From: Rhodothermus sp.
Lineage (GTDB): Bacteria > Bacteroidota > Rhodothermia > Rhodothermales > Rhodothermaceae
Assembly (NCBI GenBank): GCA_026989375.1
Contig: JALSJJ010000179.1
Span: forward strand, 1 to 52,901
DNA length: 52,901 nucleotides
Reading direction: 5' to 3'
The notes below the pieces were generated by a model. That model saw nothing but the letters and a program-made list of their open reading frames with translations, was not told where the DNA came from and did no database searches. Position numbers and translations under genes: made by a program. Below, in pieces: positions 4,848 through 43,958 of this stretch; position 1 is the stretch's first letter, and every line of letters starts with the position of its first letter.

Positions 4848-4885
4848 GCTATTGCCTCCAGCGGGCATCATCCAGGTTCCATGGT

Positions 4886-5896: not shown

Positions 5897-5925
5897 TGCT
5901 TGCGCTGCGTTTTATTGTTGGCGGC

Positions 5926-7098
5926 TCATGCTCCAGGCGGTGTGTAGCGGGCGTCGACCCAGGCGCGGCGGCGGCCACTTTCAAGGGCCGTCAGGATGAA
6001 ATGCACGCCCCGCGCGCCATCCTGCACCGTTGGAAAGTCCAGATCCAGCGGATCGGGTTTTTCGCCGGCCAGCCGCGCTTTGAGCGCTCGGGCAAAATTC
6101 AGATAGATATTGGCAAACGCTTCAATAAAGGCCTCCGGGTGGCCCGAGGGCAGCCGGGAAGCGCGTCGGGCAGCCGGTGCCAGGTATTCGTTTCCTCGCT
6201 TGTAGACCTCTTCGGGCCGATCCGGATAGCGCACGTACAGATAGTTAGGCTCTTCCTGGTGCCACTCGAGCGAAGCCTTTGTGCCGTAGATCCGGATGCG
6301 GAGGTTGTTTTCTTCGCCGACCGACACCTGCGAGGCGTACAGAATACCCCGGGCGCCATTCTGGTAGTGCACGAGCAGGTTGGCGTCGTCCTCCACTTTG
6401 CGTCCGGGCACGAACGTGGTCACGTCGGCGCAGAGCCGATCCAGCTCCAGCCCGGTGATGTAGCGGGCCAGGTGCTCGGCGTGCGAGCCAATGTCGCCCA
6501 GGGCACCGGCCCCGGCCTGTCTGGGATCGGTGCGCCACGCGGCCTGCTTCTGGCCGGTTTGCTCCAGGGGCGTGGCCAGCCAGCCCTGCGGATATTCGAC
6601 CACAATCTTGCGAATCTCACCCAGCAGGCCCTCCTGCACCAGGGCTCGCGCCTGTTTGACCATGGGATAGCCCGAGTAGTTGTGCGTAAGCGCAAAAAGC
6701 ACGTTGTGGCGGGCTACCAGCCGGCACAGGTCTTCGGCCTCTTCGAGCGTGGTGGTCATGGGCTTGTCGCACACCACATGGAAACCGGCTTCAATGAACG
6801 TCTTCGCAATAGGGTAATGCAGATGGTTGGGCGTAACGATGGAGACGAAGTCGATGCGTTCTTCGGGGGGCAGGGCAGCCTCCTTTTCGGCCATTTCCTC
6901 GTACGAGCGATAGACGCGCCGGGGATCCAGATGCAACTGAGCCCCCATCTGGCGCGACTTTTCCGGATCCGACGAGAAAGCCCCGGCCACCAGCTCGATC
7001 TCTCCGTCCAGCGCGGCTGCCCGGCGGTGCACGGCGCCGATAAAGGCGCCGGGACCACCTCCCACCATGCCATAGCGAAGCTTCCGGTTTAACGACAT
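5926..7098 (-). CDS. Gfo/Idh/MocA family NAD(P)-dependent oxidoreductase, cytoplasmic
   Basis: 390 residues. The N-terminal Rossmann fold is shown by [12 protein letters not shown] (10-21). The family EKP motif appears as CDKP with catalytic Lys112, and [10 protein letters not shown] (201-210) holds the Asp and His of the active site. The C-terminal alpha/beta domain is typical. No signal peptide is present, so the protein is cytoplasmic, unlike the Tat-exported paralogue at 11928-13262. The likely reaction is reversible oxidation of a sugar or cyclitol hydroxyl, fitting a keto-glycoside pathway. It sits 14 bp after the Tat-type TIM-barrel gene and just before the cytoplasmic TIM-barrel gene. 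Confidence 0.92.
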
Positions 7099-7112
7099 CG
7101 CTTTCCGTAGTT

Positions 7113-7970
7113 TTAGAAGGCCAATTGCGACAGATAGGCGTAACTGCGCCGAATGCTGGCCAGTGGATCGTCAGGCCGGTCGTGCTCTACAAAATAGTGC
7201 TGGAGCTGCGCCTGCGCAAAGATCTTCGCGAAATCGATCGTCCCCTGCCCGACGTCTACCATCCGCCGATCCTCCGTCATGTCTTTTACATGGCAGAGCA
7301 GAAAGCGTCCGGGATGTTGCTGCAGGTACGGGATGGGATCCTGCCCGGCATAGGTGATCCAGTACAGGTCCAGCTCCATCTTGACCAGATCGGCGTCCGT
7401 TTCGGCCAAGAGCACGTCATAGGGAATCTGCTCCTCAACAGGAGCAAACTCGAAGTCGTGATTGTGATAGGCGAACTGTATTCCTGCCGCCCTGCAGGCT
7501 TCGCCCCAGCGGTTAAAGCGTTCGGCCCAGCGTCGGTAGTCGTCGAGGGTCTGGCGCTGCTCGGGAGGCAGCCAGGGAACCACCACATAGCGGTGCCCCA
7601 GCACCTGAGCAGTTTCCAGCGTAGCCTCCAGATTTTCCTCGAGTGCCTGATAGGGCACATGCGTCGCCGGGGCCGACAGGCCCAGGTGGTCAAGCATCTG
7701 GCGTAATTCCTGGGGCGTATAGTTAAAGTAGCCGGCAAACTCGACCTCCTGGTAACCGATTTCGGCCACGCGCTCAAGCGTCCGCGGCACGTTCTGCGCC
7801 ATGAGCGTCCGCACCGTGTAGAGTTGCAGGCCGACGCGTTCCAGGCGACGCGACCCAACGGTGGCGTTCTGGTCTGATTGTTCGCGGGAGGGCCGGCATC
7901 CCCAGGCAACGGTTGCCAGGCTTCCCAGGGCCAGTCCTCCGGCTGTTCGCAGAAAGTTGCGGCGGTTCAT
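7113..7970 (-). CDS. Tat-exported sugar isomerase/epimerase-like TIM-barrel lipoprotein
   Basis: 285 residues. The N-terminus [18 protein letters not shown] is a twin-arginine signal and AWGC gives a possible lipidated Cys25, so the mature enzyme should work in the periplasm. The barrel carries YHNHDFEF (168-175), MELDLYW (198-204), HVKDM (His227) and VEHD (Glu262), the metal-site pattern of the sugar phosphate isomerase/epimerase family. Periplasmic members often lie beside DUF1080 and Gfo/Idh proteins and may act on 3-keto sugars rather than phosphorylated sugars, which would not be available there. It lies between the small dehydrogenase subunit and a Gfo/Idh gene. Confidence 0.9.
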
Positions 7971-8009
7971 GGCGTCGACGGAATGGATTCCGGTAAAAAG
8001 GAAGGCGCA

Positions 8010-8675
8010 TCATGCCCAAGCGCGGCCGATCTGGTCGTAGGGCACGCAGGCGTCGTAGCGTCCCGGTACCAGGTTCAAGCGCAGCTCCTGCGTGGCCCCC
8101 ACCTCCGAGGTATAGTAGCCCACGATGGTTAGCTCTTTCATCATGCGGAAAAACGGCTGCAGCTCCACGGTCAACGTGCGTGGTGGACGTCCCCGCGCCA
8201 TGTCTTCCGCTGACGTGTCCGGGCCTTCAATCACCTGTCCGGTTGTCCGGTCGATGACCACGCGCTGCGGCTCGGTCTGCCGGGCCTCCGCTTCCAGTTC
8301 GCGTAGCAGTTGCACCTGCTGTTCCTCCGAGGCCTGCACGAACGGCTGCCCGAACCGCTCCTGCGCCCGCGCATCCACCCGGGCCAGTTCCTGCAGGAAG
8401 TGCTCGCGTTCGGCCGCATACATCCAGTCCGTCAACATCCGGTCGATGAACTCCGGCACGCCTGCCGCCCGGGCGCCAGGGGTGTCAGTCTCCGGAAGGA
8501 TCAACTCGGCGATTGTAGCCACCAGTTCGTGCTGATCGGACGAAAGCGTCTGCGGCTGATAGGTACCCGGCGCCGAACCAGCCCGGCAGCCCCCCAGGAT
8601 GCCCGCAATGGTCGACATCGACAGCGCCCCGCCCGTCAACAGTGCCAGATGCTTTAAAGCTTCTCGTCGATCCAT
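8010..8675 (-). CDS. Gluconate 2-dehydrogenase subunit 3-type small subunit with Tat signal (hitchhiker subunit)
   Basis: About 221 residues from the start at 8675, 13 nt after the GMC stop. A start at 8723 would overlap the GMC gene and bury the signal peptide. MDRREALKHLALLTGG is a Tat signal and ILGGC provides a lipobox. The mature part matches subunit 3 of gluconate 2-dehydrogenase and the gamma subunit of FAD-glucose dehydrogenases: a helical stretch with ELILPETDTPGA and a C-terminal FFRMMKELTIVGYYTSE. These subunits bind the flavoprotein and carry it through the Tat pore. Its partner is the adjacent flavoprotein, which has no signal of its own. Confidence 0.9.
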   Translation of the reverse strand: MDRREALKHLALLTGGALSMSTIAGILGGCRAGSAPGTYQPQTLSSDQHELVATIAELILPETDTPGARAAGVPEFIDRMLTDWMYAAEREHFLQELARVDARAQERFGQPFVQASEEQQVQLLRELEAEARQTEPQRVVIDRTTGQVIEGPDTSAEDMARGRPPRTLTVELQPFFRMMKELTIVGYYTSEVGATQELRLNLVPGRYDACVPYDQIGRAWA

Positions 8676-8688
8676 AGGTCTACGCAGT

Positions 8689-10407
8689 TTACAGATTGCC
8701 TTTTTTAAGCTGCTCGACAGCATAGTGCGCAGCCCGCGCCGTCAGCGCCATGTAGGTAAGGGATGGGTTCTGGCAGGCCGATGAGGTCATGCACGCCCCG
8801 TCGGTCACGAACACGTTCGGCACCTCGTGCATCTGGTTGTACGCGTTCAGCACCGACGTTTTCGGGTCCCGCCCCATCCGTGCTGTTCCCATCTCATGAA
8901 TGCCTTCGCCTGGCTTATAGTCATCCATGAAAGGCTGCACATTCTTCCCCCCGGCCGCCTCCAGCATTTCGGCCGCTGCGTTGGCCATGTCCTCCCGCAT
9001 CTTAAGCTCGTTCTCGCTCAACGTGCAGTGAATGCGCAGCACCGGAATGCCCCAGGCATCGGTCACTTCCGGATCCAGCTCCACATAGTTCTCATAGCGC
9101 GGCAACATCTCGCCAAAGCCCGTCAGTCCCATGCGCCAGGGGCCCGGATCGCGCAGGGCCTGCTTGAGCGAAACCCCAAATCCGTCCATCTCAGCTCCCC
9201 GCCACCAGCTCCCTCGACTGGCACCGCCCTGATAACCATATCCTCGCAGAAAGTCGGGATGCCGTGTGGCCCGATCTCCCAGGTTACGGAAACGCGGAAT
9301 GTAAATGCCATTGGGCCGATTCCCGAAGTAGTATTTCTCCTCAAATCCCGGGAATTCGGCCACCGCGCCTACCTTGAAATGATGATCCATGAGATAATGC
9401 CCCAGCACCCCGTTCGAATTTCCCAGGCCGTTTGGAAATCGCCGCGACTTCGAATTCAACAAAATCTGCGTGGTCCCCAGTGTCGAAGCGCACAGGAAGA
9501 TGATCCGTCCGTAAAACTCCAGCATCTCTTTCGTCTCCCGATCGATCACGCGCACCCCCACCGCCCGGTCCTTTTCTTCATCGTAAATCACGCTGTGCAC
9601 GATGCTGTTGGGCCGCAGGGTGAGATTGCCGGTCGCCTGGGCCGCCGGGAGCGTGCTGCTCAGGCTGCAGAAATAGGCACCCGGCGTGCAGCCCCGACTG
9701 CAGGGCCCACAGTAATGACAGGCACCCCGTCCGTTGTGGGGCACGGTCAACACTGCACAGCGCCCGATGGTCATTTTGCGACCGGGAAAGGCTCTTTCGA
9801 TGCGTTCCTTGACGTGCCGCTCGACACAGTTCATGGGCATTGGGGGCAGGAATTGCCCATCGGGAAGCTGCGGCAACCCTTCAGCCTGCCCACTGATGCC
9901 TGCAAAACGCTCGACGTAATCATACCATGGCGCAAGGTCTTTGTAGCGGATCGGCCAGTCAATAGCGATTCCCTCCCGCGCATTCGCTTCAAAATCCAGG
10001 TCGCTCAATCGGTAGCTCTGCCGGCCCCACATGATGGAGCGTCCCCCTACCTGATCACCACGAATCCACAGAAAAGGCTTGTCCGGATCGTAAGTGTAAG
10101 GATTCTCCCGGTCGTTAATAAAAAAATGAATGTTGTACTCATTAACGGGTCCGGCCTGCATCTGGATATAGTGATCTTCCAGCATCCGTCGGCGGCCTTC
10201 CAGCCCCCGGAAGGGCGTCTGCCACGGCGGCATATGCTCGGTGATATAATCCTTGCCATGGGTAATCGGTCGACCGCGTTCCAGGAGCAGCGTCTTCAAC
10301 CCCAGCTCGCAGAGCTCCTTGGCTGCCCACCCTCCTGCAATACCTGAGCCTACCACAATCGCATCATATACCTCCGGCGGACGTGCTACAAATACGCGCT
10401 TCTTCAT
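8689..10407 (-). CDS. GMC oxidoreductase, FAD-dependent sugar dehydrogenase large subunit (glucoside 3-dehydrogenase-like)
   Basis: 572 residues from the ATG at 10407; a strong AAGGAGG 5 nt upstream (10413-10419) decides this start over 10431. Domains in order: FAD-binding Rossmann motif GSGIAGG near residue 20, substrate domain, and C-terminal GMC block with catalytic His504 (IHEMGTARMG) and Asn547 (NPSLTYMAL). Cys230, 233, 236 and 240 form a tight cluster (CHYCGPCSRGC) at the place where related FAD-glucose dehydrogenases bind a 3Fe-4S cluster. With no signal peptide, export would depend on the Tat small subunit encoded next. The likely reaction is oxidation of a glycoside or sugar hydroxyl, with electrons passed through the Fe-S centre to a cytochrome. 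It begins the operon ending at 4098. Confidence 0.92.
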   Translation of the reverse strand: MKKRVFVARPPEVYDAIVVGSGIAGGWAAKELCELGLKTLLLERGRPITHGKDYITEHMPPWQTPFRGLEGRRRMLEDHYIQMQAGPVNEYNIHFFINDRENPYTYDPDKPFLWIRGDQVGGRSIMWGRQSYRLSDLDFEANAREGIAIDWPIRYKDLAPWYDYVERFAGISGQAEGLPQLPDGQFLPPMPMNCVERHVKERIERAFPGRKMTIGRCAVLTVPHNGRGACHYCGPCSRGCTPGAYFCSLSSTLPAAQATGNLTLRPNSIVHSVIYDEEKDRAVGVRVIDRETKEMLEFYGRIIFLCASTLGTTQILLNSKSRRFPNGLGNSNGVLGHYLMDHHFKVGAVAEFPGFEEKYYFGNRPNGIYIPRFRNLGDRATRHPDFLRGYGYQGGASRGSWWRGAEMDGFGVSLKQALRDPGPWRMGLTGFGEMLPRYENYVELDPEVTDAWGIPVLRIHCTLSENELKMREDMANAAAEMLEAAGGKNVQPFMDDYKPGEGIHEMGTARMGRDPKTSVLNAYNQMHEVPNVFVTDGACMTSSACQNPSLTYMALTARAAHYAVEQLKKGNL

Positions 10408-10412
10408 GAGAA

Positions 10413-10419
10413 CCTCCTT
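10413..10419 (-). promoter_or_regulatory. Strong ribosome-binding site of the GMC gene
   Basis: AAGGAGG on the minus strand, 5 nt before ATG 10407. It is one of the few near-perfect Shine-Dalgarno sequences in the window and fixes the start codon. Confidence 0.8.
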
Positions 10420-10580
10420 GCAAAGGTACAACCGAAAGCCCTTTCATCAGACAAATTGAAGATAACGTGGAGGCTATCATTTCGCAAATAATGAGACCGG
10501 TTCCAGCCTTAATCCGTGCGTCACCTTTGCTATTTTAGAAATTACAGGGGATTATAGAGGCAAACTTCTGGAACATCCCT

Positions 10581-11825
10581 ATGAAACGACTCGGTGTAGG
10601 CTTCATCGGAAGCGGCTTTATCACGCGCTTTCACATTCAATCCTGGCAGGCCGTCCGGGATGCGGACGTTCGCGGCATCTGGAGCCCGAACCGTACGCAC
10701 GCCGAAGCGGCAGCGGCGCTGGCCCGCGAGCTACGCGTAGGGGACGCCCGGGTGTTTAACTCCATTGAGGCGATGGTAGCTGATCCGTCGATCGACGCCA
10801 TCTGGATCTGCGGTCCCAACCATACTCGTCTTGAAAACCTGGAAGCCATTGTCGACACGCTGGAACGGGGTCGCGGCGAACTGGTCGGCGTGGCCTGCGA
10901 AAAACCGCTGGCCCGCAACGTGGCCGAAGCGCAGCGCATGGTGGCGCTGGTAGAGCGGGCCGGCCTGCTGCATGGCTACTTGGAAGACCAGCTTTTTACC
11001 CCGGCCATTCGACGGGGCCGCGAGATCCTCTGGAAACGCGGCGCCGCATTGACCGGCCGCCCTTATCTGGCCCGTGCGGCCGAAGAGCACAGCGGCCCGC
11101 ATGCCCCCTGGTTCTGGTTTGGTAACCTTCAGGGTGGCGGCGTACTCAACGACATGATGTGCCACAGCGTCGAGGTCGCCCGTTTTCTGCTGACCGAGCC
11201 GGGCAAACCCCGCCAGAGCATTCGTCCGGTCAAGGTCACGGCCCAGATTGCCAGCCTGAAGTGGTCGCGTCCGGAATATGCCGCCTGGCTCAGGGAACAC
11301 ATGGACCCGAGCCTGGACTACGAACATCATCCCGCTGAAGACTTTGCCCGGGCGACCATCGAATTCGTGGACGAAGCCGGCCGCCCGCTCATCGCCGAGA
11401 CGACCACTTCCTGGAGCTATGTGGGTCCTGGCCTGCGTCTGACCGCCGAGCTGTTGGGTCCCGAGTACTCCCTGCAGATCAACTCGCTGGACACAGGCGC
11501 CCGCCTGTTTTTCAGCCGGCGCGTGCAGGGCGAAGCCGGGGAAGATCTGGTCGAGAAGCAAAATGCCGAGCAGGGCTGGATGCCGCTGGTGGGCAACGAA
11601 GCGGCCGAGTACGGCTACGAAGGGGAAAACCGCTACTTCGTGCACTGCTTCCTGGAAAGGCGCCAGCCAGAAGAAGACTTTTATGCCGGCCTGGAAGTCG
11701 TAGAGCTGCTCATGACGGCCTACATGAGCGCCGAGCAGGAGCGCACGCTTCCCTGGAAGCCCGAGGGGCTGGAGACGTTTGTGCCGGCCGTTGCTCAGGG
11801 CACCTGGCAACCGATCCGGCGGTAA
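10581..11825 (+). CDS. Gfo/Idh/MocA family oxidoreductase, divergent from the GMC operon
   Basis: 414 residues and the only plus-strand gene between 2.7 and 41.7 kb. The N-terminal Rossmann fold begins GVGFIGSGFI (5-14) and CEKPL (106-110) contains catalytic Lys108. A conserved GGGVLNDMMCHSVE block in the middle supplies the Asp/His of the family. No export signal. The 173-bp gap to the GMC gene is AT-rich and must hold divergent promoters, so it may respond to the same signal. It is convergent with the Tat-type Gfo/Idh gene downstream. Function: NAD(P)-linked oxidation or reduction of an unidentified sugar derivative. Confidence 0.9.
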   Translation: MKRLGVGFIGSGFITRFHIQSWQAVRDADVRGIWSPNRTHAEAAAALARELRVGDARVFNSIEAMVADPSIDAIWICGPNHTRLENLEAIVDTLERGRGELVGVACEKPLARNVAEAQRMVALVERAGLLHGYLEDQLFTPAIRRGREILWKRGAALTGRPYLARAAEEHSGPHAPWFWFGNLQGGGVLNDMMCHSVEVARFLLTEPGKPRQSIRPVKVTAQIASLKWSRPEYAAWLREHMDPSLDYEHHPAEDFARATIEFVDEAGRPLIAETTTSWSYVGPGLRLTAELLGPEYSLQINSLDTGARLFFSRRVQGEAGEDLVEKQNAEQGWMPLVGNEAAEYGYEGENRYFVHCFLERRQPEEDFYAGLEVVELLMTAYMSAEQERTLPWKPEGLETFVPAVAQGTWQPIRR

Positions 11826-11927
11826 CGGAAACGGGTTGCTTGCGCGTAACGGTTACTGTACGGAAGACCTTCCTCTTTATCTGGAGACTGCATGTCCGCG
11901 TCCGTGCAGTACGCCTCATCCGGCGGA

Positions 11928-13262
11928 CTACAGTTGCCAGCCTTCGCGATAGGTTGGGCGGATGTATTCTTCCGGAACCTCGATGTTCGTCACGCGCATC
12001 GCAGCGGCATCCCATTCGATGGGGCCCCCCAGTCGTACGGCAAGGTTCCCCAGCAGCACCATTTCCGTGAGGGGTCCGGCATAGTCCGGGAAGTTCGAAC
12101 CGGTCTGTCCCCCTTCTTTGCAGGCCTGGATCCACTCCTGATAGACCCCGCGGGAACGGGGGTAGCGCGGCTCGGGAGCGGAAGCCAGCCATTCCTGATG
12201 CCGGTGCTCCGGCACCAGCCGCGGATCATCCCCATAGGGACCGGCGATGAGCACCCCTTCGTCGCCCACGAACATCTGTCCATTGGCCATGGGGGGCCAG
12301 GGCCGGTTCTTTTCCCAGAGGGGTGGGCGCGGCGGCGCCAGGCTCCCGTCACGCCAGATCAATCGAAGCGCCGGCCGGTTGTCGCGGGCCGCGAATTCGT
12401 AGGTCACGCGCGAAACCAGGGGCGCGGTCTCCGGGAAGACCGGAGTGGTTTCAGCCATCACGCGCACAGGATCGCGCAGGTCGAACGTCCAGAACGCGGC
12501 ATCCATGATGTGACAGCCCATGTCGCCCAGGGCCCCCGTACCGAAGTCCCACCAGCCCCGCCATTTGAAGGGCAGGTAGGCGGGATGGTAGGGGCGTTCC
12601 GGGGCCGGCCCCAGCCACAGATCCCAGTCCAGCGTGGGTGGCACATGGTAGGCTTCCAGCGGGCGCTTGAGGGCCTGGGGCCAGATCGGCCGGTTTGTCC
12701 AGCAGTGAATTTCCCGCACCGTGCCAATGGCCCCGGCCTCGATCCATTCTCGAATCAGGCGCGTCCCTTCACCCGCATGCCCCTGATTGCCCATCTGCGT
12801 CACCACGCCTTGCTCCCGGGCGGCCTCGGCCAGACGCCGTGCCTCGTAGATCATACGCGTGAGCGGCTTTTCACAGTAGACGTGCTTGCCCATCTGGATT
12901 GCCATCAGGGCCGCCGCCGCGTGCGTGTGGTCGGGCGTCGAAATGACCACCGCATCGATGCGCTTTTCTTCCCGCTCCAGCATGACGCGAAAATCTCTGT
13001 AGCGCGGGACGTCCGGAAAGGCGCGATAGGTCTCCGCGGCGCGCTCATCGTCCACGTCGCAGAAAGCCACCAGGGTTTCGCTGGCCACACCCCGTACGTT
13101 CCAGGCGCCGCGTCCTCCTACGCCAATGCAGGCGATGTTCAATTTGTCGCTGGGCGGTACGAATCCACGACCCAGCACGTGCCGGGGCACCACCATGAAG
13201 GCTGCCCCTGCAGTGGCCATCGTACCCAGAAACCGACGTCGTGAAATGTTCTGGCCCGCCAT
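11928..13262 (-). CDS. Tat-exported Gfo/Idh/MocA family oxidoreductase
   Basis: 444 residues. SRRRFLGTMATAGAAFMVV near the N-terminus is a classic Tat signal, giving a periplasmic NAD(P)-binding enzyme, as in Zymomonas glucose-fructose oxidoreductase, whose cofactor stays bound. The Rossmann motif is IGVGGRGAW (46-54), CEKPLTRM (130-137) carries catalytic Lys132, and GALGDMGCHIMD provides the active-site Asp/His. The C-terminal half resembles the bacterial-type Gfo/Idh domain found beside DUF1080 proteins. It is the last gene of the four-gene operon starting with the MFS transporter, 73 bp after the DUF1080 gene. Confidence 0.92.
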   Translation of the reverse strand: MAGQNISRRRFLGTMATAGAAFMVVPRHVLGRGFVPPSDKLNIACIGVGGRGAWNVRGVASETLVAFCDVDDERAAETYRAFPDVPRYRDFRVMLEREEKRIDAVVISTPDHTHAAAALMAIQMGKHVYCEKPLTRMIYEARRLAEAAREQGVVTQMGNQGHAGEGTRLIREWIEAGAIGTVREIHCWTNRPIWPQALKRPLEAYHVPPTLDWDLWLGPAPERPYHPAYLPFKWRGWWDFGTGALGDMGCHIMDAAFWTFDLRDPVRVMAETTPVFPETAPLVSRVTYEFAARDNRPALRLIWRDGSLAPPRPPLWEKNRPWPPMANGQMFVGDEGVLIAGPYGDDPRLVPEHRHQEWLASAPEPRYPRSRGVYQEWIQACKEGGQTGSNFPDYAGPLTEMVLLGNLAVRLGGPIEWDAAAMRVTNIEVPEEYIRPTYREGWQL

Positions 13263-13335
13263 TTTTCACGTCGGGTTGGTTTAGCCTTCGAAGATTTCTC
13301 TGCAGCACCCCGGTCCTCAACGGCCGTGCGCTCCG

Positions 13336-14061
13336 TCAGCGGAGCAGGCGAATCCGGATATTGCGATACCAGACCGGATCGCCATGATTTTGCAGCGCAA
13401 TGTGTCCCTCAGATGCCCTGCCGAAGTTCGGATAGACCCGAAACTTGCTGGCCGCCACGCGGGCGTTCCAGTCGTCGCTGCCCAGTTCGTATTCGACCAC
13501 TTTCTGGCCATTGAGCCAGTGTTCTACGTGCGTGCCGTCAACGACAATGCGCGCGGTGTTCCATTCTCCGGCCGGTCGCACCGCCTGCGGATCGGTCGGA
13601 TAGAGCGCATAGCAGGCGCCGGCGCTCGTTTTTGGGTCGTTGCCGTTTGGATGGCCCGCATTGTCCAGCACCTGATACTCCGGCCCGCTCATCCACGGCG
13701 CGTCGTACGTCTCGGTCACCCGGTACATAATCCCACTGTTGCCGCCCGGCGCTACCTTCCACTCCAGTTCCAGCACAAAGTCCGCAAACTGCTCCTTCGT
13801 GATCAGATCGCCGCTACCTTCGCCCGTGCAGTGCAGCGTTCCGTCTTCAGCGATCCGCCAACAGGGCGGAATCGTCTCGCTCCGGTAGCCGCGCCAGGCC
13901 TCCAGGCTGGTTCCATCGAAGAGGACGATCCAGCCGTTCGACGTGTCGGCCGCGGTTGCCTGCCGCTCCGACGAGGCGCCCGATTGCGACGATCCGCATC
14001 CGCCGGCCAGCACAATCAGGCCCAGCAGGGCACCTACCCGTAGAAGCGTTCGGTTCATCAC
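13336..14061 (-). CDS. DUF1080 (3-keto-disaccharide hydrolase / keto-glycoside lyase) lipoprotein
   Basis: 241 residues. The signal peptide ends in VLAGGC (Cys22), a good lipobox, placing it on the periplasmic side of a membrane. A Ser/Ala-rich linker leads to a jelly-roll DUF1080 domain from about residue 44: [25 protein letters not shown] (107-114), GPEYQVLDN (126-134) and the C-terminal [22 protein letters not shown]1080 members act on 3-keto-glycosides; as I recall, work on Bacteroides assigned them 3-keto-glucoside lyase activity. Its start overlaps the upstream TIM-barrel stop by 4 nt (ATGA), indicating translational coupling. Confidence 0.93.
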
Positions 14062-14987
14062 GGTGCTCCCTGATCGTTCCGGGTTGTTTCGGTCAACAGC
14101 GTGCGCACGCGCTCCAGCAGCCTTTTGGTCGCCCGAATGCCGCTGGGTTCATCCAATCGATGCCCTTCGTATTCAATGCCAATGTAGCCGCGATAGCCTG
14201 CCTTGTGCACGATGCGCAGCAAACGTACATAATCCAGCCGGGTCTCGTTACCTTCGGCGTCGAAGTCGTACGATTTGGCGCTCACTCCCCGGGCAAACGG
14301 CATCAGCTCGTCCAGCCCCTGATAGGGATCGTACCGGGTAGTGGCGTCGATGCGCCAGTTGCCGAAGTCCGGCAGCGTGCCACACCGCGGGTGATCCACC
14401 AGATGAATGACCCCGGCCAGCCAGGCACCGTTGCTGGACAGCCCGCCGTGATTTTCGACGAGCACGTTCAGCTCGTGCGCGGCAGCAAATTCGGTCAATC
14501 GACGCAATCCATCGGCCGCCAGCTTCTGCTGCTCCTCGTAGCTGCCTTCGCTGGCGGCGTTGACCCGAATGGAATGGCAGTCCAGAAAGCGGGCGGCCTC
14601 TACCCATTTGTAGTGGTTTTCAACAGCCTGGCGGCGCTTCTTCGGATCCGGGTCGCCCAGGCGCCCTTCCCGGTCGCACATGATCAGCAGGCTGCGCACG
14701 CCTTCGCCCTCGGCCCGTCGCTTCAGTTCCCGGAGGTAGGCCCGGTCGCGCGCCCGGTCGAAAAAGAACTGATTCACGTATTCGACCGCCTCAATTCCGA
14801 ACTCGCGCCGGGCCACCACCGGAAAGTCCAGAGCATCCAGCTTCCCGCCAAAGATTGTCCGGTGCAGCGACCACTGGGCCAGCGAAATTCGAAACCAGGG
14901 GGGCGCCTCGGCGCTACCGGCCTGCGGCCATCCCAGGCCAGCGACCAGTAACGCCGAAGTTCGCTGCAGAAAGTCCCGTCGATTCAT
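14058..14987 (-). CDS. Tat-exported sugar isomerase/epimerase-like TIM-barrel protein
   Basis: 309 residues. [19 protein letters not shown] is a Tat signal with probable cleavage near SAEA (25-28). The barrel has metal-site candidates Glu178 (LVENHGG), Asp207 (PDFGNW), Lys238 and Glu272 (GIEYEG). In the Bacteroides 3-keto-glycoside pathway, as I recall it, a protein of this fold hydrates the unsaturated keto-sugar left by the DUF1080 lyase. The coupling to DUF1080 here (4-nt overlap) suits that partnership. It follows the MFS transporter by 9 bp. Confidence 0.9.
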
Positions 14988-14996
14988 GGCGCCGCG

Positions 14997-16262
14997 TTAT
15001 TGCTCTACGGTAGCAGGGGCCCCGGTGGCTGCGGCCGGCGCCCGTTCCACTCGGTCGTTGAACAGCAGGCCGAACAGCACCATCACCACGGCAGCAAACA
15101 CCGCCGGAATGAACCAGAACTGCTGCCAGGCTTCCAGCGTCAGCGACCCGGCTTCGCTCAGGAAGCTGTTGTACAGATTCCCCGCTACCTGTGCCCCGAT
15201 GAGCATGCCCAGTCCATAGGTCACCAGCACGAGCATGCCCTGCGCCTGACCGCGAATCTCCGGGGTCGACTTTTTGTCCACATAGATCTGTCCCGTCACA
15301 AAGAAGAAGTCATAGCAGATGCCGTGCAGCAGAATGCCCAGAATGATCATCCAGAAGATCGTACTGGGGGCGGCCAGCGCAAACAGCACGTAGCGCAGTA
15401 CCCAGGCACCCATCCCCACCAGCAGCATCCATTTAACCCCCAACCGCGCAAAGAATACCGGCATCAGCAGCATAAAGACCACTTCGGACATCTGCCCGAG
15501 CGTCTGCGTGCCGGCAATGTTCTGAAATCCCGTCGCCTCCAGGAAAAGCTGCGTAAAGTTATAGTAAGCGGCCAGCGGAATGCTGATCAAAAACGAACTG
15601 ACCAGGAACACGTAGAACGGCTTACTACCCAGTTGTTCAAGTGCATCCAGCCCCACGATGCTCCTAATTGAAACACGCTGGCCGGCAGCCGGCGGGGGCG
15701 TATGCGGCAGTGTAAAGCTGAAAAACCCCAGGAGCATACTGGCCACGGCCGCTGTGTAGATGGGCAGCGGAGTCTGCTCGGGCAGGCGCCCCTCCGCAAC
15801 AAAAAACTTCAACACAAAGCTTACAAATAGTCCGGCGACGATCCAGCCAATGGTGCCGAACACCCGAATCAGGGGAAACTGCCTCTCCTGGCTCTGAATG
15901 TGATGGAACGCCAGCGAATTGGCCAGCCCCAGCGTGGGCATGTAACAAAGATTATAAAGCAGGAGCAGCAGAATAAAGAGAACGGGCGCTCCGCTGAACT
16001 GCGGCACCAGTAGCAAGACCAGACCGCCCAGCAGGTGCAGCACCCCCAGCACTTTTTCTGTGGCAAAGTAGCGGTCGGCCACCAGCCCCAGAAAGAACGG
16101 CGCGGCAATGGCCGCGATCGGATTGACGGTATAGGGCCAATGCGTGAGCGTGCCCATCCCCTCGGCAGCCATGTAGACGGCCACCGACGTATACCAGGCA
16201 CCCCAGATAAAGAACTCCAGAAACATCATCGCGCTGAGGCGCATGCCCAGGAAACGCTTCAT
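14997..16262 (-). CDS. MFS transporter of the nucleoside:H+ symporter (NupG-like) type
   Basis: 421 residues with about twelve hydrophobic helices and no N-terminal signal. LEFFIWGAWYTSVAVYM in the first helix and the loop GLVADRYFATEKVLGVLHL match the NupG-like family. In Bacteroidota such proteins are frequently encoded with TIM-barrel and Gfo/Idh enzymes and probably carry sugars, keto-sugars or cyclitols rather than nucleosides. It is the first gene of the operon reaching to 11928. A LacI-type palindrome lies 105 bp upstream of its ATG. Substrate is inferred from context only. Confidence 0.88.
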   Translation of the reverse strand: MKRFLGMRLSAMMFLEFFIWGAWYTSVAVYMAAEGMGTLTHWPYTVNPIAAIAAPFFLGLVADRYFATEKVLGVLHLLGGLVLLLVPQFSGAPVLFILLLLLYNLCYMPTLGLANSLAFHHIQSQERQFPLIRVFGTIGWIVAGLFVSFVLKFFVAEGRLPEQTPLPIYTAAVASMLLGFFSFTLPHTPPPAAGQRVSIRSIVGLDALEQLGSKPFYVFLVSSFLISIPLAAYYNFTQLFLEATGFQNIAGTQTLGQMSEVVFMLLMPVFFARLGVKWMLLVGMGAWVLRYVLFALAAPSTIFWMIILGILLHGICYDFFFVTGQIYVDKKSTPEIRGQAQGMLVLVTYGLGMLIGAQVAGNLYNSFLSEAGSLTLEAWQQFWFIPAVFAAVVMVLFGLLFNDRVERAPAAATGAPATVEQ

Positions 16263-16405: not shown

Positions 16406-17272
16406 CTATCTGTTCTTGAGGAGACCGAATAGATAATGGCGGGGTTCTGGACGATCAGGTGCCGGCCGAAGGGCTTGTTGCCAGGCGCGAGGGGCGGCTT
16501 TGGACGTTCTCAGTTGCTGCAGGGTACGCCCCAGGCTATAGTGGGCGGCCTGATGCCAGGGTGCTTCCCGCACTACAGCTTCAGGCAAGGAGTGGGCCTA
16601 CGCCGGTTGTTCGGTCAGCAGCAGATTGCCCCGGCGATCGCAGGCCATTAGACTTTGCGGGGCCAGCTCACGAGCGCGATGAGCTACCCGGAGCGCCTCG
16701 GCATAACGGCCTTCGTCTTCGCACAGTTCGGCCAGATCGAGCCAGGCTTCGGCATAGGTGCTGTCGTACTGAAGAGGCGGTCTTCAGCGCCAGACGTGCA
16801 CTGTCGGGTTGCCCCAGCTCCAGATAAGCCCGACCGATGCTGCGCCACGAGAGGGCATTGGGATGCCGGATCAGCTCCAGCCGGAACAGCACGATCGCCT
16901 TACGAAACCGCCCCAACGGGCCGCATTGTTGGCCAAGTTGTGCCAGAGATCCGGGCAGGCCGGTGCCTGCCGGGCCACCAGCCAGTACAGGCTGTCGGCT
17001 GCGTCAAGCAGCCGCATGTGCGTGTAGACGCGGCCTTTGAAAAAATAAAACATCTGGATGTTCGGGCTGAAGCCCCGTGGCACTATCTGCCAGTTGAACG
17101 GCGCGGATAAACTGTTGCCGCTGAAATGCCTGTTCGGCCCGGGCCAACAGCGCCCGGGTCCGGGGCAGAAGAGGGGGAGAGACCGGGGGGCTTTCTGGCA
17201 GGCACTGAACACGCTCAGCCCAAGGATCAGCCACCCGATCCGGCCGATGCGGCAGTGCCCTGTCATTTCCAT
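16406..17272 (-). pseudogene. Decayed TPR lipoprotein gene with four frameshifts and one in-frame stop
   Basis: Joining segments of two minus-strand frames recovers a TPR lipoprotein. It has a signal with lipobox-like VFSAC, then RALLARAEQAFQRQQFIRAV, then GRVYTHMRLLDAADSLYWLV, then KAIVLFRLELIRHPNALS, then TYAEAWLDLAELCEDEGR, a TAG at 16598-16600, and SLPEAVVREAPWHQAAHY to a stop at 16406. Frame changes fall near 17190 (C5/C6 runs on the minus strand), 17045 (A6), 16920 and 16775. The original ATG overlaps the stop of the UnbV gene by one base (TAATG), so it was translationally coupled to it. Sequencing error could explain single indels, but four shifts plus a stop favour real decay. Confidence 0.8.
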
Positions 17273-19005
17273 TAGAAATCAGCCTGCGCCAGCGTTCCCA
17301 GGGGCTGTCCTGTTCCTTCCACCAGTTGCACTTCCTGGTTGGCTTCAAACGGACCAAAGCGCTCGCGCAGCCCGGTTGCCCATTCGACCTCGACGGCTTC
17401 CACCCGCCGCGCGGTCCCCAGTCCAAACGTCAACGTCTTTTCGGAGACAGCCAGGTAGCTGCCTCCCGTGCGGACGCGTTGCTCCAGCCGTCGTCCCCCC
17501 ACCCACACCATTACCCGGCTGCTGATGCCCTGGGGATGGCTTTTCGTGCCGACGAGCTGCACCCGCAGATAATGCCCGGCTCCTCGGGTATCATTGCGCC
17601 ATAGATGTACCGGTCCGTTGTTTTCGATCACGAGGATGTCCACCAGCCCATCCCGGTTAAAATCACCGTAAGCAGCCCCACGTGCGACTATTGGTTGCGT
17701 CAGCACCCCCCCGGCTTGGGGAGCGACATCCTCGAAGAAACCATAGCCGTCATTCAAAAAGAGATGGGGCGGTTGCGCATAGGTGATGCCATCTTGCACG
17801 CGCTCAATCTCGTCCTGTACGTGTCCGTTGGCGGCAAACAGATCCAGGTCGCCATCCAGATCGACGTCGAACAGAAACAGCCCGAAGGTGAGCGTCTGCA
17901 GGCTCTGTCGGCCGATCTTTGAAACGGCAGCGCGATCGATGAACAGGTCATTGCCGATGTAGCGGTAAACGCCGATCATTTCTTTGGAGAAGTTGCCCAC
18001 GAACAGGCTGATCTGGCCGGTTGTGTCGACCACGCCCGCATCGAGCCCCATACCGGCACGCGCTTTTCCATTTTCATCATAGGCTACCCCACTGGTCAGC
18101 CCGATGTCTGTAAAAGTCCCGTCGCAATTGTTTCGGTAGAGTTGATCCGGCTGTGTATCGTTGGCCACGTAGAGATCCGGGCATCCATCGCGGTTGTAGT
18201 CGGTTTCGGCAACCCCCAGCGTTTTGCCGGGTGCTGGTACGAATCCGGCCTTTTCACTCTCGTCGGTAAACGTCCCATCGCCGTTGTTACGGAAAAAGTA
18301 GGGCGGAACGCCCTCATAGGCTTCAGGCGTGCAGTAGCCCTTGGTTTTCTCATCAAGCGAACACCAGATGTCGGTCTCTGGCGTCCAGTAGACGTAGTTG
18401 CCCACAAACAGGTCCAGATCGCCGTCGCGGTCCGCATCGAAGAAGATGGCCGAGCTGCTCCAGACCGAGTCGCCGGCCACCCCGGCTTCATCGGTCACGT
18501 CCGTAAAGGTGCCGTCACCGTTGTTGCGAAGCAGGATATTCTTCCAGAGCGTGGTAAAGTATAGATCTTCATCGCCGTCGTTGTCGTAGTCGGCGGCCGT
18601 GATCCCGATGCCATAGGCGTCCAACTGCCCAAGTCCTGCCTCGTCGGTCACGTCCGTGAACGTACCGTCACCATTGTTGCGAAAGAGCCACAGCGGCCGT
18701 ACCCAGTCTTTGTCGCTGTAGCCAGGCCAGACTCCCCCGCCCACCAGCACGATATCGAGCCAGCCGTCACCGTTGTAATCGAAAAAGCCACATCCCGGTC
18801 CCATAGATTCGGGGAACCACTTCTGCCCGAACGCCCCTGTCTCATGTCGGAAGGCCCCCAGTCCGGCCGCCTCGGTCACATCGGTAAAGGCAATCTGCAC
18901 GGTCACTATGGAGGCCGTTTCCTCTACGGGTTTTCGCACCTGCTCGGCACGCTCGCAGCCGACCATCAGGAGCGCCAGCAGGCTATATACCATGCATTTT
19001 CTCAT
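17272..19005 (-). CDS. CRTAC1-type FG-GAP/VCBS repeat lipoprotein with C-terminal ASPIC/UnbV domain
   Basis: 577 residues. The signal peptide ends LLMVGC (Cys17), a lipobox. At least six calcium-binding-like DxDxDG loops follow, for example DYNGDGWLD, DYDNDGDEDLY, DADRDGDLDLF and DVDLDGDLDLF, the FG-GAP pattern of a beta-propeller. The C-terminal ASPIC/UnbV domain starts at GAGHYLRVQLVG and ends with a block on WATGLRERFGPFEANQ. Function is unknown; the family occurs near TPR proteins, cytochromes and SusC/D in many bacteria. It is coupled to the multiheme cytochrome upstream (4-nt overlap) and to the TPR pseudogene downstream (1-nt overlap), so all three formed one translational unit. Confidence 0.92.
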   Translation of the reverse strand: MRKCMVYSLLALLMVGCERAEQVRKPVEETASIVTVQIAFTDVTEAAGLGAFRHETGAFGQKWFPESMGPGCGFFDYNGDGWLDIVLVGGGVWPGYSDKDWVRPLWLFRNNGDGTFTDVTDEAGLGQLDAYGIGITAADYDNDGDEDLYFTTLWKNILLRNNGDGTFTDVTDEAGVAGDSVWSSSAIFFDADRDGDLDLFVGNYVYWTPETDIWCSLDEKTKGYCTPEAYEGVPPYFFRNNGDGTFTDESEKAGFVPAPGKTLGVAETDYNRDGCPDLYVANDTQPDQLYRNNCDGTFTDIGLTSGVAYDENGKARAGMGLDAGVVDTTGQISLFVGNFSKEMIGVYRYIGNDLFIDRAAVSKIGRQSLQTLTFGLFLFDVDLDGDLDLFAANGHVQDEIERVQDGITYAQPPHLFLNDGYGFFEDVAPQAGGVLTQPIVARGAAYGDFNRDGLVDILVIENNGPVHLWRNDTRGAGHYLRVQLVGTKSHPQGISSRVMVWVGGRRLEQRVRTGGSYLAVSEKTLTFGLGTARRVEAVEVEWATGLRERFGPFEANQEVQLVEGTGQPLGTLAQADF

Positions 19006-21731
19006 GGTTTACTGCGTTCGTTTTGCCAGGCCAGCGCCGGCATGCGCTGTAACGATCCGCGGTCGTCCACCCGATGCAGTTCGTGTTCGTGGATAGGCTG
19101 TGCTTCGCGATTCGCCATAGGATGTCGGTGCTTGTAGGGCGTGCTCCAGGCCGAAGCTTCTTCGTCTACTTTGTGATATTCGTAGCGGGCTTTGGCGGCC
19201 CGGAATTCCTCGGTACGTCCCAGCGCGCCCAGCGTTAGCATCCGGTTGTAGAGGCCGCCCAGGTCCTCCGGATCGATCTCCAGAATACGATCGAACCAGC
19301 GAAGTGCCTCTTCGTAGCGGCCGGAAAGGTAATGGATGCGTCCGATTTCCTGGAGCAGCACCCGGTCGCGGGGATAGCGAGCGACCACCTGCATCCACTC
19401 ACGCAGGGCCTGGTCGTATTCGCCGCGGCGCTGATAGATCTTGCCTCGGAAATAAGCGGTTTTCAAATAGCCAGGACGCCGCCGCTCGGCTTCAGCCAGC
19501 GCCTCCATGGCACGATCGAGCTGCCCTTCGGCAATCAGAACACGCGCCACGTTAATGGGTCCTTCAGGATTGTCGGGTGCCAGTCGACTCACCTGCTCGA
19601 AGGCTTCCAGAGCCCTACGCGTATTGCCCTCCAGAAAGAGGCCGATGCCGTAGTCATTCCAGCGTTCCCAGAGCGGTACATTGCTTTCGGGTACCTGTCC
19701 GGCTACGCGCCGTGCCGAAGCAATGACGGTTACCGGCAACTCCGGTGCCTGGCGGTCTTTGGCCAGAATCCACCGCCGATAGTCCACTTCAGGCGTAGCC
19801 AGTGAGTCGGGCTGGCCGGGTGCTACCTGTCCCCGGAATGTCCAGTTATGGAAGTACCACTTGAACTTGCGATGCTTGAAGGCAACGGTTAGCTCGGTGA
19901 TAGGACGGCCAGGTGGCACAGTAAACCGGTAATGAACCGTACGGGCTGTGCCGGGATTGATCACGTTCACATAAACCGGCGTGCGGAAATCGTGCGGATT
20001 CCGCTTGTTGGCTTCCTGTCCGGCCCGGTCGACGAACACCGCTCCGAAGAAGTGCGCGGTAGAATCAACGCGGCCTTCCGGATCGAGCAACCCGGAGGCT
20101 ACCACAGCCTGTCCCTCACGGTCGCGTCCGATCACCTCCAGCCAGAGCTCGTTTGAGTCGTTCGTGCCACCGGGCAGGGCATGTCCCACCTTTCGGTTGC
20201 GCACGACCACGGTCAGTTCTACCTGATCGCCGGGCCGAAGCACCGGCATCGGCTCGTCGGGGCCATAGGTGTGGCCATTCACCCGTACCCGAAACAGATC
20301 GACCGTGGCAATGGAGTCCTGCAAAAACGCCTGCGTCGCCCGAAGCTGTTCATCATGTCCTTTGAGAAACGGCAGCGCTGTATTTGCGGCCAGAAAGCGG
20401 TGACTCCGTACGAAGCCGCCGTCGTTTCCCTGATCATTGGAGGGGACCAGGGGCATGTGGCAGTCGATGCACGTGCGTGGTTGTTCGGGCAGATAGAAGG
20501 AGCGGACGGTATTGCCCGAGACGCCACTCATCTGCCAGGCGTCGTATTCGTTCTGTCCACGTAACCAGCGGTAGTAATTGACCGCGGGTGGCAGCCCCAC
20601 TTTGTGGCAACTGCTGCAGAATTGTTCGGTGCGGTGCACCGGACGGAGCATCGCTTCCCGGTGGGGTTCTGGCTTGGCGAGGATAAGCTGGCGGTGTAGC
20701 CACTGTCCGATCGGATTTGTGCTCCGGGCAAACGGATATTCGTCCGGTTGGGCGATCACGTAGCGTCCGTTGCCTCGCAGGTCGCGCAGTCCCGTAATCG
20801 CATGGCAGGAAAGACAGGTGATCCCCTCATGTGCTGTCCAGTGTGTGGTGTCAAGCGGCATGCGATGCCCAAAGCGTCCGGAAAAGAGCATCACCGGATC
20901 ATGACAGGAGGCGCACCAGCGGGCGGCTTCAACCGGCCGACGCTGGAGCATGTATTCGATGGAGCGACGGTAATATGGATTGTTGAACGAAGAAAAGTGA
21001 TGGGCGGAAGCTGCCCACTGTGCGTAAATATCGGGATGGCAGCCTGCCTGTCCACACGTTCGGGAGCCCGACAACGTAGCCTCTTCAAAGAACTTTTCAT
21101 GGGCCAGCAATGCTTCAGCAGCCGCCAGAGGGTTTTCGGAACCGGTATCGAGATAGACCGGGTCGGGTTGTTTCAGCCAGGGCACCAGAAAGAAGGCAAT
21201 GGAAACTACCACCCCTGCACTGAAGGTCAGCGTCAAGGGATGGTACAGCAACCGCCTCCAATGCCGGACAGCTTCCCCTCTGGCCAGCAAGAATCGAAAG
21301 CGAACGCCCCGTTTGAGCGACACGTGTACAAGAAAGCCCAGCAGTGAGGTGAACATGGTCACCACATGGAGCGTCAGCAGCCAGCGCCGATTCAGCGTGG
21401 CTTCGCCCCAGAATAGCAGGATGCCGCTCAGCAGCAGCAACAACATGGAAAGCGCCGTAAACGCGCCAGCCGCCGCAGCGCGAAGATTCCAGCGCAGCGG
21501 CATCGTACGGAGGTGCGTCAGCAGAAACAGCAAAAACGGAATGATCAAGAGCAGCCCGAGCCCAACATGCAGCAGCACGTTGCTCATATAGATGAGCGCC
21601 GTTGAGCGATCAAATAGCACGAGCACCAGGCTGTTAAGCAGCAGTACGAGAAAGCCCCCCAGCAGGATACTCACCAGCCGACGTTGTCCGTGAGGCAGAT
21701 GAAATAGCTGCCTATTACGCGAGCGCCGCAT
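19002..21731 (-). CDS. Membrane-anchored pentaheme cytochrome c with TPR C-terminus
   Basis: 909 residues. Five hydrophobic helices fill residues 17-190. Two of them carry spaced histidines (His55/His73 and His122/His136) that could bind b-type haem. The periplasmic part has five haem c motifs: CGQAGCH (226-232, CX4CH), CASCH (273-277), CLSCH (306-310), CSSCH (372-376) and CIDCH (421-425), in a cytochrome c554-like arrangement. A beta-sandwich-like section follows (about 440-670), then about four TPRs (690-850) and a His-rich tail. It probably moves electrons between the quinone pool and a periplasmic partner. It is coupled by a 4-nt overlap to the UnbV lipoprotein. Confidence 0.9.
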   Translation of the reverse strand: MRRSRNRQLFHLPHGQRRLVSILLGGFLVLLLNSLVLVLFDRSTALIYMSNVLLHVGLGLLLIIPFLLFLLTHLRTMPLRWNLRAAAAGAFTALSMLLLLLSGILLFWGEATLNRRWLLTLHVVTMFTSLLGFLVHVSLKRGVRFRFLLARGEAVRHWRRLLYHPLTLTFSAGVVVSIAFFLVPWLKQPDPVYLDTGSENPLAAAEALLAHEKFFEEATLSGSRTCGQAGCHPDIYAQWAASAHHFSSFNNPYYRRSIEYMLQRRPVEAARWCASCHDPVMLFSGRFGHRMPLDTTHWTAHEGITCLSCHAITGLRDLRGNGRYVIAQPDEYPFARSTNPIGQWLHRQLILAKPEPHREAMLRPVHRTEQFCSSCHKVGLPPAVNYYRWLRGQNEYDAWQMSGVSGNTVRSFYLPEQPRTCIDCHMPLVPSNDQGNDGGFVRSHRFLAANTALPFLKGHDEQLRATQAFLQDSIATVDLFRVRVNGHTYGPDEPMPVLRPGDQVELTVVVRNRKVGHALPGGTNDSNELWLEVIGRDREGQAVVASGLLDPEGRVDSTAHFFGAVFVDRAGQEANKRNPHDFRTPVYVNVINPGTARTVHYRFTVPPGRPITELTVAFKHRKFKWYFHNWTFRGQVAPGQPDSLATPEVDYRRWILAKDRQAPELPVTVIASARRVAGQVPESNVPLWERWNDYGIGLFLEGNTRRALEAFEQVSRLAPDNPEGPINVARVLIAEGQLDRAMEALAEAERRRPGYLKTAYFRGKIYQRRGEYDQALREWMQVVARYPRDRVLLQEIGRIHYLSGRYEEALRWFDRILEIDPEDLGGLYNRMLTLGALGRTEEFRAAKARYEYHKVDEEASAWSTPYKHRHPMANREAQPIHEHELHRVDDRGSLQRMPALAWQNERSKP

Positions 21732-21746
21732 ACGTTCATCGTATGT

Positions 21747-22198
21747 TTAAAAGTCAGGCTGCCATGCCACTTCAGCCACATACTGTCGCAAGGTAGCATC
21801 CTGCGAGCGATAGCGCAAGACCTGTAACCGTGCCCGACGTGCCGCTTCGTACTGATGCCGCCGGGCAGTACTACGCCCATGACATCTGCCAGCCTCGAAT
21901 CATGTTGCAGCAGCCGGTAATAGCACTGCACGACATCAAGGGTATCACCCAGCAGTAACGACAGATTGGCTCGATCATTTTGCGACGTTGGGTTGTTCGG
22001 CTCCCAGAAAATGGCCACAGCCAGCGCTTTTCGTGCCTCCTGCAATTGCCCCGCCCGAATCAGCAACCTGGCCAGCTTCCGCCAGGAGCGCGCATGTTGG
22101 CTCTGGTAGGCATGTCGCATTGCCTGGCCGATCTTGCCAGAGAGTTGCCGAATCTGCTGCGCACGTTCCAGAAAAAACTGCCCTGCTCGTCCAGCCTT
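21747..22198 (-). pseudogene. 5'-truncated, frameshifted TPR gene remnant
   Basis: A TPR-like helical segment reads from 22198 (just inside an in-frame TAG at 22199-22201) through ARSWRKLARLLIRAGQLQEA and AIFWEPNNPTSQNDRANLSL to about 21870. There a one-base shift moves coding into another frame, which continues RRHQYEAARRARLQVLRY and ends QPDF at a TAA (21747-21749), 16 bp before the cytochrome start. No plausible start codon or signal peptide remains. It is a second decayed TPR gene of the same cluster as 16406-17272. Confidence 0.7.
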
Positions 22199-43949: not shown

Positions 43950-43958
43950 TTCTGCTTG

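Follow-up and report, generated by a model that had tools for sequence, protein, structure and literature searches.

The gene at positions 19002-21731 (minus strand) of the window, by which we mean the whole 52,901-nucleotide stretch of Rhodothermus DNA analysed here, raises the question of whether a single polypeptide could carry electrons between the quinone pool of the membrane and the periplasm. The gene is an intact open reading frame with an ATG start and encodes 909 amino acids. A preliminary description had read the product as a b-type membrane domain, a pentahaem c domain and TPRs fused in one chain, and this was borne out by the reading frame, helices, motifs and Pfam matches, with five predicted transmembrane helices, five c-haem motifs and TPRs observed. 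The order along the chain is b-type membrane domain, pentahaem c domain, beta domain and TPR arm, and we refer to the protein as the fused cytochrome. Its reading frame was uninterrupted in all seven Rhodothermus genomes searched, with the other six being 83-96% identical, and an AlphaFold model made from 74 sequences had a mean pLDDT of 86.5 and a pTM of 0.84. The Rhodothermus protein very probably carries haem both within the membrane and outside it. Genes of the haem c maturation families CcmE and Cytochrom_C_asm were present in the window's genome, and ResB (system II) was absent from it.

The pentahaem c domain was placed at approximately residues 216-460 (20352..21086, minus strand) by fold and profile matches to 5ze8, the cytochrome c552 of Thermochromatium tepidum. 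Motifs for all five of the c haems claimed beforehand were found in the sequence: CGQAGCH at residue 226 (21036..21056), CASCH at residue 273 (20901..20915), CLSCH at residue 306 (20802..20816), CSSCH at residue 372 (20604..20618) and CIDCH at residue 421 (20457..20471), each on the minus strand. Cytochrome_C554 (PF13435) matched residues 230-310 with 30.0 bits (cut-off 20.8). A beta (Ig-like) domain, placed by the model and a fold match at approximately residues 475-677 (19701..20309, minus strand), lies within the c552-type fold. When residues 216-677 were compared to 5ze8, VIA gave a Z of 17.0 over 345 residues at 3.6 A, while the c part of the fused cytochrome matched the same entry with E-values of 5.3e-9 (Foldseek) and 4.9e-11 (sequence profile). 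The NCBIfam ExtKL model NF040886 scored 22.4 bits, below its cut-off of 250. The TPR arm spans residues 687-857 (19161..19673, minus strand) and was assigned from fold matches and from Pfam TPR families, which scored above their cut-offs at residues 687-850.

Histidines were counted over 106 rows, obtained by reducing 134 ORFs at 95% identity. The first c motif had been singled out earlier as CX4CH rather than CXXCH; the motif is present as described, but it is not unusual, as 47 of the 106 family rows carried CX4CH and 59 carried CX2CH, and CX4CH is a variant of the family and not a broken site. The proximal histidines at 232, 277, 310 and 376 were His in every row, and that at 425 in 105. 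Four histidines outside the motifs (244, 357, 444 and 517) were also His in 106 of 106 rows and are therefore candidate distal ligands for four of the c haems. A further histidine, His346, was His in 86 rows, with Ser, Asn, Asp or another residue in the remaining 20, and is retained in the window protein, where it may serve as the distal ligand of the fifth c haem, or this site may be open.

The membrane domain (residues 14-186; 21174..21692, minus strand) is DUF4405-like, as judged from the models, the K+R bias and an hhalign alignment to a DUF4405 protein of Shinella. Five helices were observed in both models, at residues 14-39, 45-76, 83-108, 113-139 and 165-185/186. The preliminary description had placed His55 and His73, spaced 18 residues apart, and His122 and His136, spaced 14 apart, in helices, and all four were found, within helices 45-76 and 113-139. 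His55 (21567..21569) is the proposed ligand of a haem b on the periplasmic side, with His122 (21366..21368) as its proposed partner, and His73 (21513..21515) is the proposed ligand of an optional haem b on the cytoplasmic side, with His136 (21324..21326) as its partner (all minus strand). Conservation of these residues in homologues, on which the haem assignment had been made to depend, was complete for His55 and His122 but partial for the other two. His55 and His122 were His in 103 of 106 rows, corresponding to all 103 rows that retain the membrane domain; the other three are without the region (L022, with an in-frame TAA and only the later ORF used; L032, at the end of its locus; and L097, from which the domain is absent). 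Both His73 and His136 were kept in only 47 of the 103 rows, neither in 51, and one alone in five (three and two). Among 71 aligned membrane domains with a mean column identity of 24%, only H55, G59 and H122 were invariant, and the central histidines were the most conserved residues of the domain.

His136 was the membrane-domain column best correlated with His73 (0.90), followed by Gly89 (0.83), and the two histidines ranked third of 10197 pairs by MI-APC. A tree computed from columns elsewhere in the alignment (residues 222-640) showed three changes of His73 and four of His136, giving three independent pairs; we describe the covariation as a pattern to which no significance can be assigned, because it reflects mainly one evolutionary event and only these three pairs. 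The spacings of 18 (55 to 73) and 14 (122 to 136) were observed in all 47 four-His family rows. In a chance control, 11 of 2311 six-frame ORFs lacking c motifs contained H-x3-G with His spacings of 18 and 14, versus 47 of 106 family rows. In the model, His55 is residue 11 of its helix and His122 residue 10, while His73 and His136 are each the fourth from the end of theirs, depths that suit the pairs 55/122 and 73/136 at two levels. The K+R fraction was 0.23 in inside loops versus 0.08 outside, with the inside value higher in 96 of 102 rows. The positive charges would place the N-terminus inside, so that the pair 55/122 would be towards the periplasm and the optional pair 73/136 towards the cytoplasm. 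The conservation pattern fits two bis-His haems, 55/122 and 73/136, with the second optional. The bis-His pairing suggested earlier is thus supported, with the histidines behaving as these two pairs and the same spacings found in a DUF4405-type homologue. We infer that haem b occupies this domain, and consider such binding highly likely.

The membrane domain of the window protein had no match in Pfam, including DUF4405 (PF14358) and b561 (PF01292). Three relatives (L133, L134 and L139) matched DUF4405 below the cut-off, and the best score of a relative against b561 PF01292 was 21.7 bits (L133; gathering cut-off 30.1). A Foldseek search with the domain gave nothing at E <= 0.001, the b-domain profile had a best E of 0.38 against PDB sequences, and phmmer with the membrane domain of the paralogue described below gave no match. 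Matches from VIA included the dihaem 4D2, cytochrome b6, NADPH oxidases, FdnI and b561, with dihaem bundles scoring up to Z 13.7; these are suggestive only, because FAT domains, which bind no haem, reach 11.7 as well.

A translated plasmid search led to records in which the two halves of the protein are separate genes. The order in Shinella sp. HZN7 was imelysin, DUF4405 protein, multihaem cytochrome and FTR1, with overlapping ends, and in Nitratiruptor sp. YY08-14 it was OprD porin, ferritin, imelysin, a 141-aa protein, multihaem cytochrome and FTR1. Both halves were also seen in a second Shinella by reading the ORFs of an unannotated record. The split-form cytochromes of Shinella and Nitratiruptor contained five CX2CH motifs each, and the split-form membrane proteins (P0002 and P0004) had the His spacings of 18 and 14 seen in the fused family. 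By hhalign, the c half aligned to P0003 with a probability of 100 (E 2e-39), and the b half aligned to P0002 with a probability of 57 (E 1.1e-4) and, using alignment A4, to P0004 with a probability of 15 (E 0.0017), with all four histidines in register in both instances. P0004 passed the DUF4405 cut-off of 26.7 bits with 31.9, while P0002, annotated as DUF4405, fell just short with 23.7. A study of DUF4405 reports that four central histidines are the most conserved and that a purified member showed haem B absorbance in vitro (PMC11334425). This homology is the best external support for haem b in the membrane domain, as a distant homology only, since the window domain has no Pfam or significant Foldseek match. 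As far as sequence comparison can tell, both halves of the fused protein are homologous to the two-gene unit of a DUF4405-type protein and a pentahaem cytochrome. The fused family joins this two-protein electron-transfer unit, encoded by separate genes elsewhere, into one chain with a docking arm. The Shinella and Nitratiruptor operons hold both halves as adjacent, overlapping genes with iron-transport neighbours, and in contrast to the fused form have no TPR and no CRTAC1. No description of an operon of imelysin, DUF4405, pentahaem cytochrome and FTR1 was found in a literature search. We take FTR1 in these operons to be of the iron permease family, and a redox step in iron uptake is a possible role for the iron operons (L147, 5360-9800; L148, 4440-9390).

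Across the order, 60 genomes were searched (the window's own included) and 32 contained the fused family; in the phylum, 20 of the 296 genomes searched did. A scan of named genome contigs gave 579 candidate stretches encoding relatives, from which the best 80 were kept, so that the taxon counts are those of a sample. The 73 non-redundant members of these best 80 of 579 included 52 from Acidobacteriota, 5 from Gemmatimonadota, 4 from Rhodothermota, 2 each from Bacteroidota, Fidelibacterota, Calditrichota and Latescibacterota, and 1 each from KSB1, Poribacteria, Planctomycetota and Actinomycetota. Alignment A2 held all 73 non-redundant loci and A5 held 70 of 72 (L062 and L117 left out), while A1, A3 and A4 held 15, 42 and 46 loci, respectively, each with the window added and the loci selected to represent the breadth of the family. 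All seven Rhodothermus genomes contained a further relative that is shorter and lacks TPRs. In the window's genome this paralogue (L144, G000:C90, 2940-4931) encodes 664 aa, adjoins a CRTAC1 gene of its own and has the same four histidines with 18/14 spacing. Six peptide patterns of the query gave no match in viral contigs.

The gene next to the fused cytochrome encodes a CRTAC1-type FG-GAP/UnbV propeller by its Pfam matches (17272..19005, minus strand) and overlaps the cytochrome gene by 4 bases. CRTAC1 was the commonest conserved neighbour: of the 61 non-redundant loci whose downstream flank extended for 1.5 kb or more, 44 had it on the same strand and no more than 1 kb downstream. When only loci with both flanks were counted (n=56), 41 had CRTAC1 on one or both sides, 4 had an FAD oxidoreductase and 11 had neither partner. 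The cytochrome-CRTAC1 pair of the window is flanked by fragments of TPR genes (16668-17272 and 21671-22120, minus strand). In other Rhodothermus (L141-L143), an intact downstream TPR gene of 404-484 codons was observed in three of three, and an upstream one of 427-429 codons in two of three. To our knowledge CRTAC1 has no redox role. Across 53 aligned CRTAC1 rows taken from the loci, only H54, H395 and M319 were conserved as possible His/Met ligands, and a crude lipobox pattern was found in 9 of the 53. CRTAC1 was also considered as a haem or copper protein and rejected, as no Cys was conserved at 93% or more among the 53 rows. In some taxa, according to one paper, genes of the CRTAC1 family are located between those for hydrazine-synthase-like subunits (PMC12758564), which is another instance of CRTAC1 next to multihaem proteins; two other papers simply list ASPIC/UnbV domains (PMC3174227, PMC3909097).

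Within one Rhodothermales group (L041-L044, L046, L047 and L039), an FAD oxidoreductase (PF12831) was observed directly upstream of the cytochrome gene, and no CRTAC1 match was found in the seven FAD-oxidoreductase loci with approximately 7 kb of flank. All seven FAD oxidoreductases with a visible N-terminus carried the twin-arginine motif S/T-R-R-x-F, a Tat-type export signal, which points to an exported electron donor as the putative product of the neighbouring gene. Six Acidobacteriota rows (L051-L055 and L057) were without an adjacent CRTAC1; in L052, L053 and L055 it was found 1.9-5.0 kb downstream, and no clear partner was seen among the inspected neighbours of L051, L054 and L055.

We propose that the fused cytochrome would be an electron adaptor in a single chain, linking the quinone pool of the membrane to the periplasm. 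The helices at its N-terminus would bind two b haems by bis-His ligation, one through His55/His122 close to the periplasm and the other through His73/His136 close to the cytoplasm, and these would exchange electrons with a periplasmic pentahaem c domain of the Thermochromatium c552/ExtKL type. The TPR arm would dock a secreted partner, in most cases the CRTAC1 protein of the next gene, and the usual flow would be inward, from a periplasmic donor to quinone. We give this whole mechanism, with inward flow, an even chance of being correct; we infer the quinone site, the role of the TPRs, the function of CRTAC1 and the direction. Inward flow is favoured because of the exported flavoenzyme neighbour and because Rhodothermus is an aerobic heterotroph. 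That partners differ between lineages suggests a general adaptor whose chemistry is set by the partner.

The main rival to this mechanism is the same wire run outward, in the way proposed for CbcL: menaquinol would be oxidised and its electrons passed to an acceptor in the periplasm or outside the cell. The TPR and propeller partners could belong to such a route. CbcL also has a dihaem b membrane domain joined to multihaem c in the periplasm, and is required for acceptors of low potential (PMC9129911), and ExtKL, related by fold family, has been proposed to take part in extracellular electron transport (PMC11976967). No match to an MtrB/PioB conduit was found in the genome, but no control genome passed the cut-off either, so this point is weak. 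The FAD oxidoreductase neighbour in one group, which suggests an electron donor, and the aerobic heterotrophy of Rhodothermus argue against outward flow, which we therefore consider possible but rather unlikely. A different proposal makes the pentahaem part an enzyme, in which the b haems would supply electrons to one five-coordinate c haem that reduces or oxidises a small molecule. Related pentahaem proteins have been grouped as possibly catalytic owing to a five-coordinate haem (PMC11976967), and only four extra histidines are invariant in the family, with His346 replaced in a portion of the rows. The window protein does, however, have His346, so all five of its c haems could be bis-His, and its neighbour genes suggest no substrate; we regard an enzymatic function as improbable.

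Two further readings concern parts of the protein rather than the direction of flow. The membrane part could be a haem-free anchor, as might be supposed from its lack of a Pfam or significant fold match and from some relatives that do without it (L097 and Granulicella P0006). Such an anchor would leave unexplained both the invariance of His55 and His122 in a domain otherwise so divergent and the identity of the His spacings with those of a DUF4405 protein, and we consider it very improbable. The fused cytochrome had also been suggested as a stand-in for the cytochrome missing from the GMC operon of the window, which would make it the dedicated electron acceptor of that dehydrogenase. The window does contain a GMC gene and its Gluconate_2-dh3 partner with no cytochrome gene beside them, the GMC accessory gene and the cytochrome share contig and strand in six of seven Rhodothermus genomes, and Gluconate_2-dh3 was found in 31 of 32 genomes with the cytochrome versus 19 of 28 without (Fisher p 0.004, uncorrected for relatedness). 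The suggestion nonetheless proved weak, since the accessory gene is never adjacent to the cytochrome, for which CRTAC1 is the commonest neighbour. In the window the two genes are 10.5 kb apart, with a plus-strand gene (10581-11825) between GMC and cytochrome; in five other Rhodothermus genomes the distance is 10.8-27.9 kb, and in the sixth they are on different contigs. In addition, 19 genomes have Gluconate_2-dh3 but lack the fused cytochrome. A dedicated GMC acceptor is the least probable of the alternatives.

The fused cytochrome is DUF4405-like and of the c552/ExtKL type, and is not a CbcL. Like the window domain, the DUF4405 cytochromes b (PF14358) are small, with four conserved central histidines in helices; the members described in PMC11334425 have six helices where the window domain has five, and are tied to flavinylated proteins and not to pentahaem cytochromes, whereas the window domain is fused to c haems and TPRs. 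Five c motifs and an Ig-like domain are shared with c552 (5ze8), ExtKL, Gsu2801 and the cable-bacterium sPHC (PMC11976967), but these proteins are soluble, while in the window protein the pentahaem part is joined to a membrane domain of b type and to a TPR arm. The same source groups c552, ExtKL, Gsu2801 and the cable-bacterium cytochromes by structure and raises a possible tie to archaeal cytochrome nanowires. CbcL of Geobacter resembles the fused cytochrome in having dihaem b and periplasmic multihaem c in one chain and in being proposed as a quinone link, but it has nine c haems and six helices (PMC9129911), versus five c motifs and five helices here, and no TPR. The CX2CH motifs of CbcL are in its N-terminal portion (PMC6295460), so that its order of c and b is opposite to that of the fused cytochrome. 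Neither ExtKL nor CbcL was among the fold-search matches, which excludes nothing. The modules are individually known, and we did not find the fusion, its spread, the change of partners or the paired loss of one haem site described. No description of the fused family (b, pentahaem c and TPR) was found in our literature searches, outside which subscription papers largely lay.

On a wider and more tentative reading, to which we give somewhat less than even odds, these proteins would represent undescribed, widespread modular adaptors between quinone and periplasm, built from a DUF4405-type b domain and a pentahaem c domain. In Proteobacteria and Campylobacterota the two would be separate genes next to an iron permease, while in Rhodothermota, Acidobacteriota and other phyla they would have been fused and have gained a TPR arm. 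The partners would be FTR1/imelysin, a Tat flavoenzyme or CRTAC1, depending on lineage, and one branch would have lost the cytoplasm-side haem, turning a two-haem wire into a one-haem wire. If true, a self-contained b and c electron wire would join the short list of quinone-periplasm links, and would do so in Acidobacteriota, Rhodothermota and Gemmatimonadota, phyla where such links are poorly known. If partners do depend on lineage, CRTAC1/UnbV propellers would be part of a redox system, and these proteins, common in bacteria and with no bacterial role found, would gain a testable redox context. Because the family combines its pentahaem partner with membrane domains of either two haems or one, it would also offer a natural experiment on whether quinone chemistry becomes electrogenic through the second b haem; the two forms may differ in whether that chemistry moves charge across the membrane.

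Several other features of the window were observed. A single plus-strand frame at 3-2315 contained glycoside hydrolase family 3 domains together with a beta-lactamase-type domain. A cluster at 4098-16262 contained ThuA, sugar isomerase-like TIM barrels, Gfo/Idh/MocA, GMC with Gluconate_2-dh3, a 3-keto-disaccharide hydrolase and a nucleoside/H+ symporter-type transporter, and resembles a 3-keto-sugar pathway. A tandem pair of signal-peptidase (Peptidase_S26) genes was observed on the minus strand at 42891-45185.
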